From Sphaerotilus sulfidivorans (lineage in GTDB: Bacteria; Pseudomonadota; Gammaproteobacteria; Burkholderiales; Burkholderiaceae_C): a stretch of 64,000 nt of DNA. Position numbers and translations under genes: made by a program. Position 1 is the stretch's first letter, and every line of letters begins with the position of its first letter. Below, one piece after another: positions 35,182 to 46,510 of the stretch. The stretch spans positions 62,001 to 126,000 of the forward strand of contig NZ_JACCPY010000006.1 in assembly GCF_013426975.1 (NCBI RefSeq), given 5' to 3'. The notes beneath the pieces were generated by a model. It worked only from the letters and a program-made list of their open reading frames with translations, was not told where the DNA came from and ran no database searches.

Positions 35182-36525
35182 TCAGACCCGGCCCTTGAGC
35201 ACCGCCATGTAGGCGGGCTTGAGCATGCGGTACTTCATCAACCACGCGAAGAAGCTGTCATTCAGCGGCTCGATCATCGGCAGCGACGGTGTCAGCCGGC
35301 CTTCGTAGTCGAACTCGATCAGCATTGCCGAGCCCTCGCGTGTGATCAGTGGGCACGAGGTGTAGCCATCGAAGGTCTCGTCGGCCTGGCGACCGGCGAT
35401 CACCTCCACCAGGTTGTGGGCCACCAGCGGCGCACTCTTCTTCACCGTGGCCGCGGTCTTGCCGCGCGGCGTGCCGTTGATGTCGCCGATGCCGAACACG
35501 TTGGGGTAGCGGCGGTGCTGGAGCGTGCTCTTGTCCACCTCCAGCCAGCCGCCGGCGGCGAAGGGGCCTTCCTTCCAGGCGAGCTCGCTGTTCTTCACGG
35601 CGTCAGGCGCGCGCATCGGCGGCACGACGTGGATGAAGTCATAGGGCATCTCCTGCTTCTCGCCTTCGGGCGAGACGAAGGTGGCGCGGCGCGCGCCGAT
35701 GTCGATGGCGGCCAGCTTGCGCGAGAACTCGACATCGATGCCCAGCGACTTCCATCGCTCCAGCACGTTGTCGTTGACCACCTTGACACCGAAGACATTG
35801 CCCAGCGCCGACTGGAAGCTGATCTTCGAGTTGCCCAACGTGCCCGCCTTCAAGAGGCGGTCGCGGAGCATGAAGCTCATCTTCAAGGGGGCGCCGGCGC
35901 ACTTGAGCGGCGTGGCTGGCAGCGTCATCACGGCGTTGCCGCCCTTGGCCGTGAAGGCCTGCATGGCCGCCCAGGTGGCCTGTGCCGCCTGCGGGCTGGG
36001 GTAGACGCTGGCCAGGCCTGGTGCCTTGTCCGTGCCGATGGCGCCGACATCCATGCCCTCGATCTGCGCGAAGTCCAGGTGCACGCCGGTGGCCACCACC
36101 AGGAAGTCGTACGGGATTCGCTGGCCACCCGCAGTGACGACGGTGTTGGCCGCCGGGTCGAAGCCGGCCACCATGTCCTTCACCCACTCCACGCCGGCAG
36201 GCTGGTAGTCGGCGTTGCGGTCGCGCACCTTCTCCACCGGCCACACGCCGGTGGCCACCAGCGTGTAGCCGGGCTGGTAGTTGTGCTCTTCCTTGCGGTC
36301 GATGATGGTGATCTTCGCGCCATCGAGCATGCGTGACAGCCGGTTGGCCACGGCGATGCCGCCCAGGCCGCTGCCGGCGATGACGATGCGGGCCGATGTC
36401 TTGACGGCGGCACGCGCGGGTGCCGGCCCTGCGGCGGCACCTGCCAGGACCGGTGCTGCCGTCAGCGCTTGCAGCCAGCGTCGGCGGGACGAGTCCATGC
36501 CAGATGTGGGGCGGTTCTGCTTCAT
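35182..36525 (-). CDS. Tat-exported sulfide:quinone oxidoreductase-like flavoprotein
   Basis: A 447-residue FAD protein. The N-terminus carries a twin-arginine-like signal (DSSRRRWLQALTAAPVLAG, about 11-30), so it should act on the periplasmic face. The FAD motif is GSGLGG (51-56) and the second FAD contact is VFGIGDINGTPRGKTAATV. Two Cys in the right places, C209 (PLKCAGAP) and C391 (YTSCPLI), match the catalytic pair of SQRs. The third Cys of classical bacterial SQRs is absent, as in type II enzymes. It would oxidise sulfide to (per)sulfide sulfur and reduce quinone, directly feeding the bd oxidase encoded in the same series. Confidence 0.82.
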   Translation of the reverse strand: MKQNRPTSGMDSSRRRWLQALTAAPVLAGAAAGPAPARAAVKTSARIVIAGSGLGGIAVANRLSRMLDGAKITIIDRKEEHNYQPGYTLVATGVWPVEKVRDRNADYQPAGVEWVKDMVAGFDPAANTVVTAGGQRIPYDFLVVATGVHLDFAQIEGMDVGAIGTDKAPGLASVYPSPQAAQATWAAMQAFTAKGGNAVMTLPATPLKCAGAPLKMSFMLRDRLLKAGTLGNSKISFQSALGNVFGVKVVNDNVLERWKSLGIDVEFSRKLAAIDIGARRATFVSPEGEKQEMPYDFIHVVPPMRAPDAVKNSELAWKEGPFAAGGWLEVDKSTLQHRRYPNVFGIGDINGTPRGKTAATVKKSAPLVAHNLVEVIAGRQADETFDGYTSCPLITREGSAMLIEFDYEGRLTPSLPMIEPLNDSFFAWLMKYRMLKPAYMAVLKGRV

Positions 36526-36592: not shown

Positions 36593-37006
36593 TCAGAAGG
36601 CCAGCGTGTTGACGCCGGGCTTGAGCAGGTGGGCCGCCACTTCGGCCGGCTTGGCCGGGGTCACGCCGGCGATCAGGTCGCTGGCCTGCTTGCCGGTGTT
36701 GGGCAGGTACAGGGCGCAGACCTCGACCTTCGCACCGGCCTTGATCACGCCCTGCAGCATCTGCTGCGGCGTGACGTTGCGCGGCTTGAGCGTGGGCATG
36801 TCCTTGCCGGTCAGCGCGATGTCGCCGGCCGCGTCGCACAGCAGCACCCGCACCGTGGCCTTCTGCTCCAGGGCCTGGCCCGCGAGCACCAGCCCGGCGC
36901 CCTGCGCCATGGCATTGCCGGAGTGGATGTTGACGAACAGCTCCTCGGCCTGCACCGCGGCGGCGGTGGACAGCAGGGCGGCGGCGATGATCAGAGACTT
37001 CTTCAT
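36593..37006 (-). CDS. Periplasmic DsrE-family protein
   Basis: A 137-residue DsrE/DsrF-like protein with a signal peptide (MKKSLIIAAALLSTAAAVQA, about 1-20). Cys residues occur in VRVLLCDAAG and KVEVCALYLPN; the second sits where DsrE-family sulfur carriers have their active Cys. These proteins bind persulfide sulfur or form complexes in sulfur trafficking. An exported form next to SQR suggests it receives sulfane sulfur in the periplasm (inferred). Confidence 0.8.
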   Translation of the reverse strand: MKKSLIIAAALLSTAAAVQAEELFVNIHSGNAMAQGAGLVLAGQALEQKATVRVLLCDAAGDIALTGKDMPTLKPRNVTPQQMLQGVIKAGAKVEVCALYLPNTGKQASDLIAGVTPAKPAEVAAHLLKPGVNTLAF

Positions 37007-37080: not shown

Positions 37081-37629
37081 TCAAAGTGTGGTCGGCTTCG
37101 CAGGCAAGCCCAGCAGCGTGCGCAGTTCATCGGCCAGTCGGACCGTGGCCACCTGGGCCACACGGCCGTTGTCCAGCCGCAGGACGGTGGCGGCGCCCTT
37201 CACGCGCGGGATGTCGGCCACCTGCGCGAGATGAGCGCCTTCGCGGACGAGGGCGATCGGGAAGGGCAGTTCGCGCAACTTGGGCAGGGCGAACATGCGG
37301 GTCACCAGCGCCGGCATGCCGCTGATGTCGGCCACGTAGACGAGGCGCATACGCTCGGCCACACCGGCGGGCTCGGCAGCGAGCACGGCACTGACCATGT
37401 CGCTGACCGGCTTCTCGGACGTGAAGATCACCCAACGTGTCTGGGAGCTGACAGCAGCCGGCTTGTCGTGCTGGTCGTTCAGGCTCAGTGTGGGCATGGC
37501 CGAGCCTTCCGTCAGTGGCGCGGCATCTGCCCTCAGCGGCAAGGACAAGGCCACGGCACAGATCAGCGCGGTCAGGGTTGTGGCCCAGGCGGCGCGCATG
37601 CCAGGCTGGCGGGGATTCATCGGGTTCAT
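37081..37629 (-). CDS. Exported thioredoxin-fold-like protein without catalytic Cys
   Basis: A 182-residue exported protein with a signal peptide (hydrophobic about 16-33, ending ADAAP). The remainder has a peroxiredoxin/TlpA-like opening (GSAMPTLSLNDQHDKP), but the place expected to hold the active Cys reads WVIFTSEKPVSD, and there is no Cys in the mature part. The ATG overlaps the globin stop by four bases. It may be a binding or structural relative rather than a redox enzyme. Function unknown. Confidence 0.72.
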   Translation of the reverse strand: MNPMNPRQPGMRAAWATTLTALICAVALSLPLRADAAPLTEGSAMPTLSLNDQHDKPAAVSSQTRWVIFTSEKPVSDMVSAVLAAEPAGVAERMRLVYVADISGMPALVTRMFALPKLRELPFPIALVREGAHLAQVADIPRVKGAATVLRLDNGRVAQVATVRLADELRTLLGLPAKPTTL

Positions 37630-38057
37630 CGCGGGTACCGTGCGGCGTTGCCGGTGTTGACCATGTGCTCGGCCATGCCGGTGAAGGCCCGCTCGACCGC
37701 TTCACGCAATGCTGGGTCAGCCACCTGCTCGGCCAGTGCCTGCCGCATGCACAGCATCCACTCGTCGCGCTCCATGACGCCGATGGCGTAGGGCGCGTGC
37801 CGCATGCGCAGTCGGGGGTGGCCGCGCTCGCGGATGTACAGCGGCGGCCCACCGAACCAGCCACTCAGGTACTTGAAGAGGCTGTCCGCGCTGCCAACCA
37901 GGCTCTCGGGGTGCAGGCGGCGCACCGTGTAGGCCTCGGGCAGCTCGTCCATCAGCGCGTAGAAGCGGTCCACCAGGGCGCGGATCGCCGATGCGCCGCC
38001 CAATCGGGCATAGACGCTGTCGGTCGCGACTGCAGTTTCGGCCAGGGCTTCGGTCAT
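37626..38057 (-). CDS. Group II truncated haemoglobin
   Basis: A 143-residue 2-on-2 globin. Recognisable parts are VYARLGGASAIRALVDRFY at the N-terminus, proximal His H87 in RLRMRHAPYAIG, and the Trp in DEWMLCM, equivalent to the G8 Trp of group II. The ATG at 38057 is preferred to an upstream TTG. Group II globins bind O2, NO and sulfide tightly, so a scavenging or sensing role beside bd oxidase and SQR makes sense. It is coupled to the gene after it by an ATGA overlap. Confidence 0.9.
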   Translation of the reverse strand: MTEALAETAVATDSVYARLGGASAIRALVDRFYALMDELPEAYTVRRLHPESLVGSADSLFKYLSGWFGGPPLYIRERGHPRLRMRHAPYAIGVMERDEWMLCMRQALAEQVADPALREAVERAFTGMAEHMVNTGNAARYPR

Positions 38058-38111
38058 GGTGTGTCGGGTTTCCAGGTTCAGCGGCAAGTTCAAGCGCCAA
38101 TCAGCGGCAGA

Positions 38112-39038
38112 TCACCGGTACTGACGCAGATAGTTCCACTCGAAGCCGCGCTTGGCCCAATGGAACAGACGGGTGGACGGCAGCAGCCAGTTGCGCTCGG
38201 GCGTGCGCCAGATCAGCGTGCCGTGGTCGACGGCGTCGACGATGCAGATCAGCTCGACCTTGAAGGTGGCGCTGGACGGCTTGCCCTGCAGGTCGGCGAG
38301 CAGGTTCTCCGCTGCCGCCGCGGCCTGCAGGTCGGCCATGTGCGCCTGCTTGGGCATCCAGTCGGGGCCGGGGAAACTGCCCGAGTCGCCCACCACGTAG
38401 ACGCGCTCGGTGCCGGGAATGCGGCACTGCGCATCGGCCTGCAGCAGGCCACCGGGCGAGCGCGGCAGGCCGGTGGTGTCGAACCATGCGTTGCCCGTCA
38501 TGCCGGGCATGAAGAGGATCAGATCGGCGGCGAACTCGCCGCCCTCGGTCACGACCTTGTCGGTGTCGAAGCGCTTGAGCTTGTAGCCCAGGTGGGTGCG
38601 GATGCCGCGCCGCGCCATCTCGCCCAGCAGGTGCTTCACGGCCTTGGGGCCGAGGCGGTTACCGGGCTCGGTGCTGGGGTTGAAGAAGACGATCTCGAAG
38701 CGTTCGCGCCGGCCTTCGCGCCGGAGTTGCTCGTCGATGCCGAAGAGAAACTCGAACATCGGCCCACCGCGTACCGCGGTCGGCTCGTTCGGGTTGCCGG
38801 CGAAGCCGACCGCGATGGTGCCGCCCTGCATCTCGCGCAGGCGGTCGCGGATGCGCTCGGCCGCGGTGATGCCCTCGCAGGGCGTGATCGCGTGTTCGAT
38901 GCCCGGCAGCCTCTTGATGAAGCGACCGCCGGTGGCGATGACCAGTGCATCGTTGGTCACTTCGCCCAGGCTCGTGTGCACCGTACGGCCACCGTCGCCC
39001 AGCACGGTGATGTGGGCGGGGTTGCTGCGAGCGGTCAT
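38112..39038 (-). CDS. N-terminally truncated FAD-dependent (SQR/NDH-2-like) oxidoreductase
   Basis: A 308-residue protein that begins in the middle of the pyridine-nucleotide-disulfide oxidoreductase fold. The first 35 residues correspond to the end of the first FAD domain (NDALVIATGGRFIKRLPG), then the NAD/second domain (GTIAVGFAGNPNEP) and the second FAD contact VYVVGDSGSFPG. The N-terminal Rossmann GxGxxG segment, about 85-90 residues, is missing. It is not encoded upstream in any frame, since the DUF302 gene occupies that DNA. The ATG overlaps the DUF302 stop by four bases, so it is still translated. It may be a decaying gene or a protein repurposed without full FAD binding. Confidence 0.75.
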   Translation of the reverse strand: MTARSNPAHITVLGDGGRTVHTSLGEVTNDALVIATGGRFIKRLPGIEHAITPCEGITAAERIRDRLREMQGGTIAVGFAGNPNEPTAVRGGPMFEFLFGIDEQLRREGRRERFEIVFFNPSTEPGNRLGPKAVKHLLGEMARRGIRTHLGYKLKRFDTDKVVTEGGEFAADLILFMPGMTGNAWFDTTGLPRSPGGLLQADAQCRIPGTERVYVVGDSGSFPGPDWMPKQAHMADLQAAAAAENLLADLQGKPSSATFKVELICIVDAVDHGTLIWRTPERNWLLPSTRLFHWAKRGFEWNYLRQYR

Positions 39039-39472
39039 GAGGCGTTCGCTGCTGTGCTGGCCGTGCCTTCATTGCCGTTGGCCAGGCGCGCCACCACCCG
39101 CTGCAGCGCGGCGGTGGCCGTCTCGCAGGCGGCGTGCACGGCGGCGTTGTCGGTGGCTGCCGCGATCACCGCCGGGTCCTGCAGCGCGATGCGTGTCACG
39201 CCGGGACGGGCCTCGGCGACGCCACAGCCACAAGGCAGCATCGCGCCCATGTCGGGCTCCGCACTCAGGATCGAGTGGGCCACCTTGGGGCTGCAGATGC
39301 CCAGCAGCTTCTGCGGGTGGCTGTCCAGGCCCAGCTTGGCCTTGAGCGTGGCCTGCACGTCGACCTCGCTGACGATGCCCATGTGCTCGGCCGCAAGTGC
39401 CGCCCTCAAGGTCTCGATGGCAGAGGGCAGAGGCTGCGGCAGGTCGATGGTGAGGGCGTAGGCGGTGGTCAT
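39035..39472 (-). CDS. DUF302 family protein
   Basis: A 145-residue soluble protein of the DUF302 fold (family blocks AALAAEHMGIVSEVDVQATLKAKLG, HPQKLLGICSPKVA and LLPCGCGVAE-like in part). It has the CGC motif (PCGCGVAEA) often seen in these proteins, which could bind a metal or sulfur. DUF302 genes recur next to sulfur oxidation and bd-oxidase genes. Its biochemical role is not established. It overlaps the truncated oxidoreductase gene by four bases. Confidence 0.85.
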   Translation of the reverse strand: MTTAYALTIDLPQPLPSAIETLRAALAAEHMGIVSEVDVQATLKAKLGLDSHPQKLLGICSPKVAHSILSAEPDMGAMLPCGCGVAEARPGVTRIALQDPAVIAAATDNAAVHAACETATAALQRVVARLANGNEGTASTAANAS

Positions 39473-39522: not shown

Positions 39523-40158
39523 TCAGGCGGGCTCGGCGAGAGGCAGCTCACGCACCCGGGCCAGGAACTCGTCGCGCGTGGCGCCGCCGAACCAGGGATG
39601 CCAGCGCCGCTGTTCCAGCACGTTGGAGACGGCACGCGAGCGCTGGGCATGGCCGGTGAACAGCAGCGTCTCGGCCGGCCGCTTGAAGACGTCGTTCACC
39701 ACGCTGTCCCACAAGGCCTCGGGCAGGGCCGGACGCGGCTGGAAGGGGCAGGCGTCCACGGCCAGCAGGCCGCCGCAGAACAGGCGGTCGCGCCACAGGT
39801 AGCTCAGGCATCCGGCGGTGTGGCCCGGTGTCTGCAGCACCTGGACATGCTCGTTGCCGAAGGTCAGCACGCCATGCTCGGCCTCGCCCGCTGCCGCTGC
39901 CGCCGCGGCGGGAAGGTGGTGCTGGATGCGGGGCGCACCCAGCGCATCCAGCGCCGCGGCCTCGCCCGTCAGCAGCGCGTCGTGCTCATGGGTGCGCAGC
40001 AGCCAGCGCAGGCGCAGCTGGTGTTCGTCGAGCATCGCTCCCAGCAGGGGAACGTCGGCGCCGCGCGGGTCGATCAAGACGGCTTCGCCGGCATCCAGAT
40101 CGGCCAGCAGGTAGCTCACCGCACCGCTGCGTTCGTCGTGCAGGAGTCGGAAGTACAT
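39523..40158 (-). CDS. ETHE1-like MBL-fold protein with a degraded metal site
   Basis: A 211-residue metallo-beta-lactamase-fold protein that starts like persulfide dioxygenases (MYFRLLHDERSGAVSYLLAD; EAVLIDPRGADVPLL). The family metal motif THxHxDH reads THEHDALL, so the final Asp-His is lost. The later TPGHTAGCLSY is intact, but the usual GD Asp is replaced (FCGGLLAVDA). The iron centre of an active dioxygenase is therefore doubtful. The ATG at 40158 has GGGAG upstream. It lies between ybgE and DUF302. Confidence 0.78.
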   Translation of the reverse strand: MYFRLLHDERSGAVSYLLADLDAGEAVLIDPRGADVPLLGAMLDEHQLRLRWLLRTHEHDALLTGEAAALDALGAPRIQHHLPAAAAAAAGEAEHGVLTFGNEHVQVLQTPGHTAGCLSYLWRDRLFCGGLLAVDACPFQPRPALPEALWDSVVNDVFKRPAETLLFTGHAQRSRAVSNVLEQRRWHPWFGGATRDEFLARVRELPLAEPA

Positions 40159-40179
40159 GGATCGCTCCCTGGGCACTTG

Positions 40180-40467
40180 TCAGTGCTGAAGCTTCAGCAC
40201 GGCGGCCAGCAGCAGCGCCGCGGCGCAGGCCCACCCGGAGAAGATGGCGCGCCAGATCCAACGTCGCGGCACGAAGCCGACGCCGCGCACGAAACCCGCG
40301 CTCATGGCCCAGAACAGCGCCATCGCCAGGTTGTGGTCGGCCTTGCCGGCTGCATCGGCCATCAGCGGGGGGTACAGCGTGCCGCCTACCATGATCAACA
40401 GGGCCACTGTCAGGCTGGGCCACTGGATCCGGGAGGGCGTGGGCACCGGCACGTGCACGGTGTTCAT
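40180..40467 (-). CDS. ybgE: Cyd operon protein YbgE
   Basis: A 95-residue membrane protein with three hydrophobic segments. The most telling part is FVRGVGFVPRRWIWRAIFSGW, matching the HGVGFRPQ...W...FCP region of E. coli YbgE. YbgE is encoded with cytochrome bd oxidase; its exact role is unsettled. The ATG overlaps the cydX stop (ATGA). Confidence 0.85.
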   Translation of the reverse strand: MNTVHVPVPTPSRIQWPSLTVALLIMVGGTLYPPLMADAAGKADHNLAMALFWAMSAGFVRGVGFVPRRWIWRAIFSGWACAAALLLAAVLKLQH

Positions 40468-40607: not shown

Positions 40608-41228
40608 TCAGGCAGCGTCGCCGCCGATGAGGATTCGCGTGTCGCCCGCATAGCGGTGCGGCGGAATCTCGAGGTTGGTCGGAGCCGGCTTGTTCTTGAA
40701 GACGCGGCCGGCGCCGTCGAAGGTGGAGCCGTGGCAGGGGCAGAAGAAGCCGCCCGGCCAGTCCGCCGGCAGGCTGGGGCTGTTGCCGCCCTGGGGCGCG
40801 TTGCTGGGCGAACAGCCCAGGTGCGTGCAGATGCCGATGGCCACGAAGACCTCGGGCTTGACGGCGCGCGCCGGGTTGCGCGCGTAGTCGGGCTGCTGGG
40901 CCTGGGCGGACTGCGGGTCCACCAGCTGGTCGTCGTGGCCCTGCAGCGCCGCGATCATCTCGGGTGTGCGCCGCACCACCCATACCGGCTTGCCGCGCCA
41001 TTCCACGGTCTTGGATCCCCCGGGGGGAATGTCGGAGATGTCGACCTCCACCGGGCCGCCGGCAGCTCGGGCGCGCTCGCTGGGCGCGAAGGTCGACACG
41101 AAGGGCACGGCGGTGGTCAAGGCTGCGACACCGCCGGCCACGCCCGTGGCGATCAGCCACAGCCGCTTCTCGGGATCATGTGGCGCTGTGTCGATCGAGG
41201 GGCAGGCGACGGGAAGTGATGGGTTCAT
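40608..41228 (-). CDS. Rieske iron-sulfur protein inside the cyd operon
   Basis: A 206-residue Rieske protein. It has an N-terminal anchor (about 22-45: KRLWLIATGVAGGVAALTTAVP) and a soluble [2Fe-2S] domain with box 1 CTHLGC (C134, H136, C139) and box 2 CPCHGS (C163, C165, H166). C139 and C165 are the disulfide pair of bc1-type Rieske proteins. The pattern is that of the ubiquinol-cytochrome c reductase subunit (PetA), but no cytochrome b or c1 gene lies near. The Tat-like region has KR rather than RR. It sits 27 bases after cydB and 12 bases before cydX, so it is cotranscribed with the bd oxidase. Confidence 0.92.
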   Translation of the reverse strand: MNPSLPVACPSIDTAPHDPEKRLWLIATGVAGGVAALTTAVPFVSTFAPSERARAAGGPVEVDISDIPPGGSKTVEWRGKPVWVVRRTPEMIAALQGHDDQLVDPQSAQAQQPDYARNPARAVKPEVFVAIGICTHLGCSPSNAPQGGNSPSLPADWPGGFFCPCHGSTFDGAGRVFKNKPAPTNLEIPPHRYAGDTRILIGGDAA

Positions 41229-41255: not shown

Positions 41256-42398
41256 TCAGTACGCGGTGTGCTCGTTGGCGCGAATGTGTTCCGCGGTCAC
41301 CTTGCCGCGCATCACCCGGTAGGCCCAGGCGGTGTAGAACACGATCAGCGGCATGAAGATCAGCGTGGCCCAGAACATCAGGCCCAGCGTGAGATGGCTG
41401 GAGACGCTGTCCCACACCGTCAGGCTGGCGTTGGGCTGGCTCGACGACGGCATCACGAACGGGAACATCGCCGCGCCGGCTGTGCCGATCACGCCCACCA
41501 GGGCCAGCGCCGAGGCGATGAAGGCGCTCAGCGTGCGCCGCGCCGCCACCAGCGTGGCAGCGGCCAGCGCGCCGGCGATGCCCAGCGCCGGCAGCAGCCA
41601 CAGCAGCGGCTGCTGGCGATAGTTGAGCCACCAGGCGTCGGCGCTGCGTGCCACGGTCTTCGACATCGGGTCGGGCAGGGCGGCAGGATCGATCTGCGAA
41701 GTGATGACATAGCCCTCGATGTCGCCGAACTTCAGCCACAGGCCGGCGCCGACGAAGGCCAGCACCATCACCAGCGCCGCGCCCACCGCACCGCGCACGG
41801 CGCGCTGCTGGATGGATCCTTCGGTGCGATGCGCCAGGTAGGTGCCGCCGTGCATCGTGATCATCGCGCTGCTCACCACGCCGGCCAGCAGCGCGAAGGG
41901 GTTGAGCAGCTGCCAGAACGTGCCGGTGTAGGTGCTGATCAGATAGTCGTCGAAGCCGAAGGGCACGCCCTGCAGCAGATTGCCGAAGGCCACGCCGAAG
42001 ATCAGCGGCGGCACCGCCCCGCCGACGAACAGGCCCCAGTCCCAGGTGCTGCGCCAGGTGGCGTTGTGGATCTTGCTGCGGTAGTCGAAGCCCACCGGGC
42101 GGAAGAACAGCGCCCACAGCACCGCCAGCATCGCCCAGTAGAAGCCGCTGAAGGCCGTGGCATAGACCAGCGGCCAGGCCGCGAAGATGGCGCCGCCACC
42201 GGTGATGAACCAGACCTGGTTGCCGTCCCAGTGCGGGCCGACGGTGTTGATGACGACGCGGCGTTCTTCATCGCCTTTGCCGACGAAGGGCAGCAGCGTG
42301 CCCACGCCCATGTCGTGGCCGTCCATGATGGCGAAGCCCACCAGCAGCACGCCGACGAGCAGCCACCAGATGATCTTGAGGGTCGGATAGTCGATCAT
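41256..42398 (-). CDS. cydB: Cytochrome bd ubiquinol oxidase subunit II
   Basis: A 380-residue polytopic membrane protein with about nine helices. Strong CydB blocks are GFAIMDGHDMGVG, NTVGPHWDGNQVWFITGGGAIFAAWP and VSSAMITMHGG-type sequence. It forms the heterodimer with CydA and needs CydX. The start ATG is 10 bases after the cydA stop. Length is the same as E. coli CydB (379). Confidence 0.96.
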   Translation of the reverse strand: MIDYPTLKIIWWLLVGVLLVGFAIMDGHDMGVGTLLPFVGKGDEERRVVINTVGPHWDGNQVWFITGGGAIFAAWPLVYATAFSGFYWAMLAVLWALFFRPVGFDYRSKIHNATWRSTWDWGLFVGGAVPPLIFGVAFGNLLQGVPFGFDDYLISTYTGTFWQLLNPFALLAGVVSSAMITMHGGTYLAHRTEGSIQQRAVRGAVGAALVMVLAFVGAGLWLKFGDIEGYVITSQIDPAALPDPMSKTVARSADAWWLNYRQQPLLWLLPALGIAGALAAATLVAARRTLSAFIASALALVGVIGTAGAAMFPFVMPSSSQPNASLTVWDSVSSHLTLGLMFWATLIFMPLIVFYTAWAYRVMRGKVTAEHIRANEHTAY

Positions 42399-42408
42399 GG
42401 TGCGTGCC

Positions 42409-43965
42409 TCAGGCGTGTGCGGGTTCGAACTGGTAGCGGCCGGTGCCCAGTGAGCCGGGCCCCTGACGCGCGAACTTCTGCATCAGGTAGATCTCGACGA
42501 TCAGCAGCACCGTGTAGAAGCCGATGAAGCCCGCCAGCGAGCCGTACAGGCTGTTCACGCTGAGCGTGGAGACGCTCATGTGCGTCGGCAGCACGCCGTA
42601 GATGGTCCAGGGCTGGCGGCCGTATTCGGCCACCACCCAGCCCAGCTCGCAGGCGATCCACGGCGCCGGCAGCATCAGCACCGCAGCGCGCAGCAGCCAG
42701 GGCCGCGTCTGGAACTCGCCCTTCAGCGTGGCCCAGAAACTCAGGCCGAACAGCAGCAGCATCGCGAAGCCCAGCCCGACCATGATCCGGAAGCTCCAGA
42801 ACATCGGCGTCACGCGCGGCACGGTGTCGTGCATGGCCTGGTCGATCATCGCGGGGGTGGCCTGGCGCACGTCGGCGGTGTACTTCTTCAGCAGCAGGCC
42901 GAAGCCGAGGTCGCCCTTGGTCGCTTCGAGCACGCGCTTGGCCTCGGCGTCGTCGCGGTTCTTGCGCAGGGTTTCCAGTGCAGCGACGGCGGTGATGCCG
43001 TTGACGATGCGCTCACGGTTCTTCGCCTTGATCTCGTGGATGCCGGGGATTTGCTTCGTCACCGAGCGGGTGCCGATCAGGCCCATCACCCACGGGATTT
43101 CGACAGCCCAGTCGTTCTTCTGTTCAGCCTCGTTGATGCCCGCGATGACGTTGAAGCTGGCGGGCGCGGGCTCGGTCTCCCACATGGCCTCGATGGCGGC
43201 CATCTTGGTCTGCTGGGCCTCGCCCACGGTGTAGCCGCTTTCGTCACCGAGCACGATCACGCTCAGCACGCTGGCCAGCCCGAAGGCCGACGCCACGCGG
43301 AAGCTGCGCTTGGCGAACTCGATATCGCGGCCCCGGAGCAGGTACCAGCTCGACACCGACAGCACGAACATCGCGCCGGTGACATAGCCCGCGGAGACGG
43401 TGTGCACGAACTTGACCTGCGCGTCGGGATTGAAGACGACCGCCCAGAAGTCCGTCATTTCCATGCGCATCGTCTGGTAGCTGAACTCCGCGCCCACCGG
43501 GTTCTGCATCCAGCCGTTGGCGATCAGGATCCACAGCGCGCTGAGGTTGGTGCCCACGGCCATCAGCGTGGTCACCATCAGGTGCTGGGTCTTTGTCAGC
43601 CGGTCCCAGCCGAAGAAGAACAGGCCGATGAAGGTCGACTCCAGGAAGAAGGCCATCAATCCTTCGATGGCCAGCGGCGCGCCGAAGATGTCGCCGACGT
43701 AGTGCGAGTAGTAGGCCCAGTTGGTGCCGAACTGGAACTCCAGCGTGATGCCGGTGGTGACGCCAAGCGCGAAGTTGATGCCGAAGAGCTTGCCCCAGAA
43801 GCGGGTCATGTCCTTCCAGATGACCTGGCCGGTCATCACGTAGACGCTCTCCATGATCACCAGCAGCCACACCATGCCCAGCGTCAGCGGCACGAAGAGG
43901 AAGTGGTACATCGCGGTGGCAGCGAACTGCAGGCGCGACAGGTCGACGAGTTGTTCCGGAATCAC
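42409..43965 (-). CDS. cydA: Cytochrome bd ubiquinol oxidase subunit I
   Basis: A 518-residue quinol oxidase subunit. LSRLQFAATAMYHFLFVPLTLG carries H21, equivalent to heme ligand H19 of E. coli. GRQPWTIYGVLPTH is the conserved bd signature. A Q-loop of full length (total length close to the E. coli 522) marks the long-loop, CydAB-type enzyme rather than the short cyanide-insensitive CioA type. The GTG at 43965 with GGAG upstream is the start and overlaps the cydP stop. Bd oxidases keep working in the presence of sulfide and NO, in line with the neighbouring genes. Confidence 0.96.
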   Translation of the reverse strand: MIPEQLVDLSRLQFAATAMYHFLFVPLTLGMVWLLVIMESVYVMTGQVIWKDMTRFWGKLFGINFALGVTTGITLEFQFGTNWAYYSHYVGDIFGAPLAIEGLMAFFLESTFIGLFFFGWDRLTKTQHLMVTTLMAVGTNLSALWILIANGWMQNPVGAEFSYQTMRMEMTDFWAVVFNPDAQVKFVHTVSAGYVTGAMFVLSVSSWYLLRGRDIEFAKRSFRVASAFGLASVLSVIVLGDESGYTVGEAQQTKMAAIEAMWETEPAPASFNVIAGINEAEQKNDWAVEIPWVMGLIGTRSVTKQIPGIHEIKAKNRERIVNGITAVAALETLRKNRDDAEAKRVLEATKGDLGFGLLLKKYTADVRQATPAMIDQAMHDTVPRVTPMFWSFRIMVGLGFAMLLLFGLSFWATLKGEFQTRPWLLRAAVLMLPAPWIACELGWVVAEYGRQPWTIYGVLPTHMSVSTLSVNSLYGSLAGFIGFYTVLLIVEIYLMQKFARQGPGSLGTGRYQFEPAHA

Positions 43966-44150
43966 GAGGGTTCTCCGCGGGTGACGACAGGTGCAGGGCC
44001 GCCCAGGTGGGCCGCAGCCCGATCGGCATCGACGCTGACCTGTTCGTCCTGCACGAAGGCTGCCCACAGGCCGGTCAGCACCATGAGCTTCAGCACGATG
44101 GCGACGGCCAGATGGCGGACCAGGCGATCCTGGGCAGAGGGCTTGTTCAT
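43962..44150 (-). CDS. cydP: Putative cytochrome oxidase small subunit CydP
   Basis: A 62-residue single-helix protein (HLAVAIVLKLMVLTGLWAAF, about 13-32, then QDEQVSVDADRAAAHL). This matches my recollection of the small CydP family encoded at the head of some cydAB operons. It overlaps cydA by four bases. It is the first gene of the leftward series, facing the sigma-54 activator across a 199-base spacer. Confidence 0.75.
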   Translation of the reverse strand: MNKPSAQDRLVRHLAVAIVLKLMVLTGLWAAFVQDEQVSVDADRAAAHLGGPAPVVTRGEPS

Positions 44151-44239
44151 GCCTTCTCTTTCTCAAGATGCGTGCCACGGATCGAGATTGGAAAAAATCC
44201 TTTCAGAACAATGACTTGTGAAGTATCGATCTTTGTTCA

Positions 44240-44293
44240 TGCCAGTTTGGCAGTTCAGTGGCTGCCATTCATGGCATTGACATGCCATTCATG
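44240..44293. promoter_or_regulatory. Cluster of TGGCA/TGCCA dyads, likely activator binding sites
   Basis: The divergent spacer holds TGCCA-GTT-TGGCA (44240-44252), TGGC-TGCCA (44259-44267) and ATGGCAT-TGAC-ATGCCAT (44271-44288). An 11-base direct repeat TGCCATTCATG occurs at 44263-44273 and 44283-44293, offset by 20 bases (two helical turns). Such phased repeats 90-130 bases from the regulated gene fit upstream activator sites for the sigma-54 enhancer-binding protein encoded alongside. Confidence 0.55.
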
Positions 44294-44349
44294 CAGCCGC
44301 TGTCATGATGGCCGTAGACTCGGTCCCACCCCGCCGATCTTCCTGGAGC

Positions 44350-45702
<1,353 letters not shown>

Positions 45703-45706
45703 GGGC

Positions 45707-46510
45707 TCAACCGCGCATCAGGAAGGCCGCCGTCATCGCCAGGCCGGTCAGCACCACGCCGGTGCGCACCCAGGCAGCCGGCAGCCGTCGTGCCAGCCGC
45801 GCGCCGATGAAGCCGCCCAGCGTGGCGGCCACCATCATCACCAGCGCCTGCGGCCAGGCCACTGCGCCGGCCCAGGCGAAGGCGGCCACCGACAGCAGCG
45901 ACAGCACCAGCGAGTTCAGGTTCTTCAGCGCGTTGGCGGTGTTGAGGCTGGATTCGCCGGTCAGCGTGTACAGCGCCATCAGCAGGATGCCCAGGCCGCC
46001 GTTGAAATAGCCGCCGTAGACGGCCACCGCGAACAGGCCGAGCCGCTGCGCCCGCAGCGAGGAGGCGGAAGAAGAGGGCGAGGGCGCCGACGTGCTGGCG
46101 TCCCGCGCCCGGCGTGCGGCCACCAGGCGCGGTCCGAGCGCGAACAGCACGGTAGCGAACAGCAGCAGCCACGGCACCGCGGCCGAGAACAGCCGGGCCG
46201 GCGTGACCAGCAGCAGCCCGGCTCCGGCCAGGCCGCCCAGCGCGCAGATCAGCGCCTCGGCATGGCGGCGTGCGGCCGGCAGCTCGGCGAGTTCGCGCCG
46301 GAAGCCCAGCGCGCTGCCGAGGTAGCCGGGACTGACCGCCACCGCGCTGGTCGCATTGGCGACGATCGGCGGCAGGCCGGTCCAGACCAGCGCAGGAAAG
46401 GTGAGAAAGCTGCCGCCTCCGGCGATCGCGTTGAGCGCGCCGGCGCCCAGCGCCGAGGCGCTCAGCAGCAGAAGATGGGAGAGGTTCAGGGGCAGATCAA
46501 GTGCGGACAT
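45707..46510 (-). CDS. TSUP family (TauE/SafE) membrane anion exporter
   Basis: A 267-residue membrane protein with about seven to eight helices. The two family repeats are visible as LNAIAGGGSFLTFPALVWTG and VYGGYFNGGLGILLMAL. TSUP members export sulfite, sulfoacetate or related organosulfur anions, among others. Located next to the sulfide locus, it could remove oxidised sulfur products, but TSUP substrates vary widely. It converges with the sigma-54 activator, 4 bases apart. Confidence 0.87.
   Translation of the reverse strand: MSALDLPLNLSHLLLLSASALGAGALNAIAGGGSFLTFPALVWTGLPPIVANATSAVAVSPGYLGSALGFRRELAELPAARRHAEALICALGGLAGAGLLLVTPARLFSAAVPWLLLFATVLFALGPRLVAARRARDASTSAPSPSSSASSLRAQRLGLFAVAVYGGYFNGGLGILLMALYTLTGESSLNTANALKNLNSLVLSLLSVAAFAWAGAVAWPQALVMMVAATLGGFIGARLARRLPAAWVRTGVVLTGLAMTAAFLMRG

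Follow-up and report, generated by a model that had tools for sequence, protein, structure and literature searches.

The window, a 64,000-nucleotide stretch of the Sphaerotilus sulfidivorans genome, contains a gene for a bc1-type Rieske iron-sulfur protein (petA2) between cydB and cydX of a cytochrome bd oxidase operon, which faces a divergent gene for a putative FisR-like regulator. We consider it probable that PetA2 serves the bc1 complex as an alternative Rieske subunit, and that the FisR-like regulator induces it jointly with sulfur genes and a sulfide-tolerant bd oxidase.

The petA2 reading frame is intact, with both the CTHLGC and CPCHGS boxes, and its product passed the model for bc1 iron-sulfur subunits (Table 1). 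It belongs to a tight run of minus-strand genes, cydP-cydA-cydB-petA2-cydX-ybgE, followed on the same strand by genes encoding a metallo-beta-lactamase-fold (MBL) protein, a DUF302 protein, a sulfide:quinone reductase (SQR)-like protein, a globin, two uncharacterised proteins and a second SQR-like protein. The gaps between cydB and petA2 and between petA2 and cydX are 27 and 12 bases, cydX and ybgE overlap by 4 bases, and no intergenic gap from cydA through ybgE exceeds 27 bases; the GTG start of cydA overlaps the cydP stop, as read from the sequence by eye. This spacing suggests that petA2 is cotranscribed with the cyd genes. A preliminary description, made from the sequence alone, had reported a Rieske gene with intact boxes between cydB and cydX, and the family models confirmed this for petA2 and both flanking genes. 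CydB and CydX scored above their model cut-offs for a bd-I oxidase and CydA below its own, the CydA family searches having been run on a longer reading frame (42409-44004). The ybgE product passed the Pfam model but not the NCBIfam YbgE model (42.9 bits, cut-off 89.55).

Table 1. Genes and regulatory elements of the petA2 island, numbered from the first nucleotide of the window
Feature	Position	Strand	Basis
Sulfide:quinone reductase-like flavoprotein	35182..36525	-	NF049943, 200.8 bits, below cut-off 525
Uncharacterised protein recurring in related loci	36593..37006	-	DsrE-like by eye; one sub-cut-off NCBIfam match
Uncharacterised protein recurring in related loci, label TRXL	37081..37629	-	No family match
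Bacterial-like (truncated) globin	37626..38093	-	PF01152
SQR-like flavoprotein without the N-terminal part of its relatives	38112..39038	-	Family search, alignment
DUF302 protein	39035..39472	-	PF03625
Metallo-beta-lactamase-fold protein	39523..40176	-	Pfam Lactamase_B, 17.8 bits, below cut-off
ybgE-type cyd operon protein	40180..40467	-	PF09600, 85.7 bits, cut-off 25.2
cydX, 43 aa	40464..40595	-	TIGR02106, 41.7 bits, cut-off 31.6
petA2, bc1-type Rieske iron-sulfur protein, 206 aa	40608..41228	-	TIGR01416, 212.7 bits, cut-off 97.4
cydB, bd oxidase subunit II	41256..42398	-	TIGR00203, 502.7 bits
cydA, bd oxidase subunit I	42409..43965	-	NF011677, 797.5 bits, below cut-off 968
cydP, putative small subunit, heading the run	43962..44150	-	NF045611, 50.7 bits, cut-off 29.6
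Putative sigma-54 promoter, -24/-12-like, upstream of cydP	44163..44177	-	One mismatch; motif recurs across loci
Five TGGCA/TGCCA half-sites, probable activator-binding region	44240..44287	-	Motif count, comparative
Divergent PAS/sigma-54 activator, FisR-like, cysteines 76, 87 and 94	44305..45702	+	Pfam domains, comparison
TauE/SafE exporter, convergent with the activator	45707..46510	-	PF01925

Elsewhere in the S. sulfidivorans genome, petA1, petB and petC are consecutive on contig C60 and form a complete bc1 set; the window is on contig C111. Matches to PetB and to cytochrome c1 (PF02167) were found in this genome on C60 only, in agreement with the earlier statement that petA2 lacks a cytochrome b or c1 gene nearby. 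PetA1 and PetA2 are 67% identical over the matched part. The complete petABC on C60 rules out the window gene as the only PetA and bears out the suggestion that it is a second PetA paralogue. The preliminary description had named, as the finding that would speak against it, a sole PetA that pairs with a bc1 complex encoded elsewhere; its first half fell with the petABC set on C60, while pairing with that bc1 complex is what we judge most likely.

Comparison with the 63 alignment columns showing at least 95% conservation across 95 operon-encoded PetA proteins indicated that PetA2 is, by sequence, a bc1 subunit. The window PetA2 keeps 61 of these 63 near-invariant columns, the two changes being G35A in the membrane anchor and A58G near the hinge, and the 39 PetA2 rows keep a mean of 59.8. 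The cluster ligands, disulfide boxes and Pro loop are kept in PetA2, as are most hinge columns. Anchor position G35 is the column that PetA2 loses most consistently (kept in 2 of the 39 rows and lost in 37), and alanine at this column is also found in two of six Rhodocyclales operon PetA proteins. The anchor itself is present in the window PetA2, with a PF10399 score (19.6 bits) below the cut-off of 24. Among solved structures, the strongest matches were bc1 Rieske subunits (best 7yr9), and matches to b6f proteins were lower and weak.

PetB was matched in 39/39 (the window's genome included), 10/11 and 16/18 PetA2 carriers, and two members of the 18-carrier set (G405 and G407) repeat the 11-carrier set, giving a total of 64 of 66 carrier handles, among which some genomes occur under two handles. 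The two exceptions (G407 and G793) had neither a PetB nor a PetA1 match, and either genome may be incomplete. A PetA match was found in 379 of the 399 same-family genomes drawn; 15 of the other 20 also had no PetB match, and ten of these 15 (L162-L171) keep a CydA that is 56-63% identical to that of the window. It may be that petA2 was never present in the lineages of these genomes without bc1. The suggestion in the preliminary description that PetA2 acts in an alternative complex or as a redox sensor is disfavored by the retained bc1 columns, by the co-occurrence with PetB, and by the interchangeable second Rieske protein reported in Rubrivivax gelatinosus (PMC4013037, PMC6256036).

In order to place PetA2 among other PetA proteins, a tree was rooted with 27 class-wide PetA sequences, all of which precede a petB and which were drawn for use as outgroups only. 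The 37 Burkholderiales PetA2 rows formed one clade (SH-aLRT 98) and the 20 PetA1 rows a separate one (SH-aLRT 99), so that the phylogeny against PetA, a check proposed in the preliminary description, set the two apart. The PetA1 rows comprised four others and 16 of the 62 Burkholderiales rows that were used, together with the 39 PetA2 rows, for the residue counts. Three sequences identical or almost identical to others (L111, L114 and L116, to L014, L026 and L055) had been dropped to give the 39 rows, and L104 and L024 were additionally dropped to give the 37; L022 was tagged 'other', yet grouped with the pet rows. In the free tree, the grouping of six Rhodocyclales-type PetA2 rows with the 37-row clade had no support, and L088 stood apart; forcing all 43 PetA2 rows to be monophyletic gave a higher likelihood and was not rejected (p-AU 0.865). 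The family was thus seen in both Burkholderiales and Rhodocyclales, the latter label being taken from record names (Dechloromonas and Azonexus belong to the Azonexaceae, Rhodocyclales), while the record name of L053 gives Betaproteobacteria only. Four clade-specific residues (M91, Q112, T184 and F162) were considered as signs of PetA2 specialization and rejected, as they are the commonest state in outgroup PetA, which makes Burkholderiales PetA1 the derived form at those sites.

The neighborhoods of 60 PetA2 loci were mapped with tblastn. These consisted of 40 loci from the top of the matches listed, 20 from named genomes and the window, minus L156, which proved to be a pet-operon PetA1; several genomes are represented by two locus names (such as L014/L142, L026/L145 and L012/L243), and the counts are therefore of loci or handles and not of independent events. 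The order cydB, petA2, cydX was found in 13 of the 60 loci, the window included, and this recurrence shows that petA2 is neither a chance reading frame nor an assembly quirk. Together with L130, in which a CIO-like cydAB precedes petA2, these 13 bd-I-like loci bring the number with cydAB just upstream to 14, with interruptions between cydB and petA2 by another gene in L012 and by about 0.8 kb in L138. In the other 46 loci no cydAB was found just upstream, seven of them holding less than 2.7 kb of upstream sequence, four of which could not be judged. The regular cydAB linkage expected of a bd subunit was thus not found. The commonest neighbor among those tested was a PAS/sigma-54 activator like that of the window (34/60 loci, above 400 bits), which occurred together with cydAB in 11 loci and without adjacent cydAB in 23, while 26 loci had no full activator match nearby and 23 had neither. 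The activator gene was upstream and divergent, if not always adjacent, in 31 of the 34 loci; it has the same direction as petA2 in L139 and L140 and lies downstream in L148. The linkage to a bd oxidase that was noted in the preliminary description therefore stands, but the more frequent link to the regulator had been overlooked.

Other arrangements were also observed. The bd oxidase gene that precedes petA2 in L130 and L241 is divergent and CIO-like rather than of the bd-I type, with a CydB 32-33% identical to that of the window. Genes that appear octahaem-c-like by eye are near petA2 in L024, L066, L088, L132 and L133, with a b561-like gene (by eye) beside them in the last four but not in L024. 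The CydA proteins encoded beside petA2 in L053 and in Dechloromonas L079 are 77-78% identical to that of the window and thus closer than those of the ten same-family genomes without PetA, which suggests either island transfer or distinct cyd lineages. A draw of 60 genomes around that of L012 (a Rubrivivax record) gave 17 PetA2-type loci that were mapped with short flanks, including seven with the activator, six with cyd genes and four with neither. Photosynthetic reaction-centre genes were found in 13 of 18 genomes tested; the window's own genome was one of the 18 and had none. The PetA2 of R. gelatinosus is likely the same orthologue as that of the window.

The window activator contains PAS, sigma-54 AAA+ and Fis-type HTH domains (the latter two by Pfam), and comparison across loci points to a divergent sigma-54-type promoter. 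A -24/-12-like motif was found at most 500 bases upstream of the first gene (petA2 or cydPAB) in 31 of the 34 activator-linked loci, and elsewhere in 12 of the 26 other PetA2 loci (14 without) and 7 of the 63 petA1 controls, two controls having fewer than 300 bases to search. In the 160 bases upstream, these 31 loci contained a mean of 3.9 TGGCA/TGCCA half-sites, compared with 0.32 in mononucleotide shuffles; both motifs were picked once these very sequences had been inspected, and the control was searched with the same promoter pattern. The promoter match in the window is not significant on its own (5 matches found vs 6.2 expected), and its weight is comparative. Only 3 of the 31 loci contained a strict IHF motif, so no role of IHF is claimed.

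Three cysteines of the activator, at positions 76, 87 and 94 (spacings of 11 and 7), were invariant in all 34 loci. In the FisR of Cupriavidus, the third sensor cysteine is presumably at position 71. Sulfane sulfur is reported to link Cys53 and Cys64 of Cupriavidus pinatubonensis FisR by a tetrasulfide, a pair with the same spacing as C76-C87 of the window activator (PMC9495516), and Cupriavidus FisR is described as sensing through three conserved cysteines (PMC9774590). Furthermore, a homologue in C. metallidurans CH34 (52.6% identity, both cysteine spacings identical) has the same promoter type and half-sites by eye and faces a persulfide-dioxygenase-like gene, with an SQR-like gene beyond; the dioxygenase-like product matches Blh in its dioxygenase half, and its score of 389 bits falls short of the cut-off of that bifunctional model. 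A dioxygenase-like gene of this kind faces the activator in one PetA2 locus (L125). A 45% identical homologue in Pseudoalteromonas xiamenensis shares the cysteine spacing and is encoded opposite a cyd operon, where no petA match was found. In Acinetobacter baumannii, sulfide reportedly induces cydAB, CydAB is refractory to H2S, and FisR is without those cysteines (PMC7315123), so the cysteines do not define FisR. The window activator is thus FisR-like and a likely sensor of sulfane sulfur.

By eye, the metal motif of the MBL-fold protein is degenerate (THEHDAL in place of HxHxDH); an MBL match lies inside the mapped stretch of 19 of the 60 PetA2 loci, a count that takes in the dioxygenase-like match of L125. 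The shorter SQR-like protein has 308 residues, aligns from residue 76 of its 381-residue relative in L114, and is without the N-terminal part carrying the FAD motif (by eye), owing either to an in-frame internal loss or to assembly collapse. With a degenerate MBL motif and one shortened SQR-like protein, the local sulfur pathway of the window may be impaired.

Several other explanations of the position of petA2 have to be weighed. It is unlikely that PetA2 works as a genuine bd oxidase partner, its Rieske head taking or passing electrons at CydAB on the periplasmic side. The recurrent cydB, petA2, cydX order in Burkholderiales and in a Rhodocyclales Dechloromonas is what such a partner would give, as are the CIO-like cydAB preceding petA2 in L130 and the CIO-like cydB in L241, the two perhaps incomplete carriers without a PetB match, and the loss of anchor G35; however, the 46 loci without cydAB just upstream (four unjudgeable), the retained bc1 residues, the Pseudoalteromonas activator homologue facing a cyd operon without petA, and the ten genomes with CydA but neither PetB nor PetA, perhaps of lineages that never had petA2, all argue against it. 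A stronger form of this idea, a Rieske-assisted quinol oxidase with PetA2 supplying or substituting for an electron step of CydAB and being kept in genomes without bc1, with both bd-I and CIO-like oxidases, is quite unlikely; its bc1-less carriers would be G407 and G793, if these genomes are complete, and its oxidase types those of the window, L130 and L241.

The view that PetA2 merely duplicates PetA1, having reached the operon by drift and being co-expressed to no purpose, is unlikely: it agrees with the interchangeability and redundancy reported in R. gelatinosus (PMC4013037, PMC6256036) and with the differing gene contexts across the family, but not with a strongly conserved clade of its own or with the recurrent activator linkage and promoter motif. 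It is very unlikely that PetA2 serves another quinol-oxidizing or multihaem module of these islands, such as the SQR-like proteins or the octahaem-c-like and b561-like proteins. The five loci with such genes near petA2 (four for b561-like) speak for it, but neither of the latter two was matched in the island of the window or in the majority of the 60 loci, and the conserved bc1 residues are retained. That PetA2 acts on its own in the membrane, sensing redox state or storing electrons, is highly improbable. The missing adjacent cytochrome b or c1 gene could speak for it, but PetA2 resembles bc1 subunits in its cluster boxes, its Pro loop and most of its hinge columns, and the locus already holds a candidate sensor in the activator.

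In the explanation that we favor, an alternative bc1 Rieske subunit, the FisR-like activator would sense reactive sulfane sulfur and turn on cydPAB-petA2-cydX and the sulfur genes from the sigma-54 promoter. The sulfide-tolerant CydABX would carry respiration past sulfide-sensitive oxidases, while PetA2 would enter the ordinary bc1 complex, with PetB and PetC encoded elsewhere, in place of PetA1. The benefit might be the replacement of a damaged Rieske head or a tuning of bc1. Duplicated Rieske genes, called redundant in the accounts cited here, would thereby gain a concrete and testable role, a stress-induced swap of the bc1 Rieske subunit, and bc1 would be remodelled, not merely bypassed, when a bd oxidase is induced.

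Orphan petA genes were also observed on plasmids of Cupriavidus gilardii (L260), C. oxalaticus (L262) and Burkholderia contaminans (L264), where their neighbors include cueR or genes for a heavy-metal P-type ATPase or a multicopper oxidase. These were three of the five plasmid regions opened from 31 matching records, and the five plasmid PetA proteins keep 53-60 of the 63 conserved columns. From this copper or heavy-metal setting one may suspect a broader connection between spare Rieske genes and stress.

A duplicated bc1 Rieske gene is of a known kind. R. gelatinosus PetA1 and PetA2 are reported to be interchangeable in bc1 (PMC4013037, PMC6256036), and the likeness to the window is that of a second bc1-type Rieske gene in a betaproteobacterium with one copy outside the bc1 cluster; in the available excerpts of these accounts there is no mention of a cyd operon or of a FisR-like regulator. 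Mesorhizobium loti likewise has two Rieske genes, with differential regulation reported in the title (PMC6256036), but the main text of PMC6256036 contains no word beginning with 'cyd'. In the available text of two papers on bd oxidases, Rieske proteins are named once, as a phylogenetic comparison (PMC5322542), and never (PMC4325964), and no printed description of a Rieske gene in a cyd operon, or of such a place under a FisR-like regulator, was found in the open-licence literature searched. The window operon resembles cydABX(ybgE) bd-I operons in its CydA, CydB, CydX, CydP and YbgE, as identified by family models, and differs in the Rieske gene between cydB and cydX. It also resembles the FisR-controlled sulfide oxidation operons of Cupriavidus and Acinetobacter in the divergent sigma-54 activator, the sulfur genes and the nearby TauE exporter, and that of Cupriavidus in the spacing of the cysteine pair, but starts with a bd oxidase and a Rieske protein instead of a persulfide dioxygenase.
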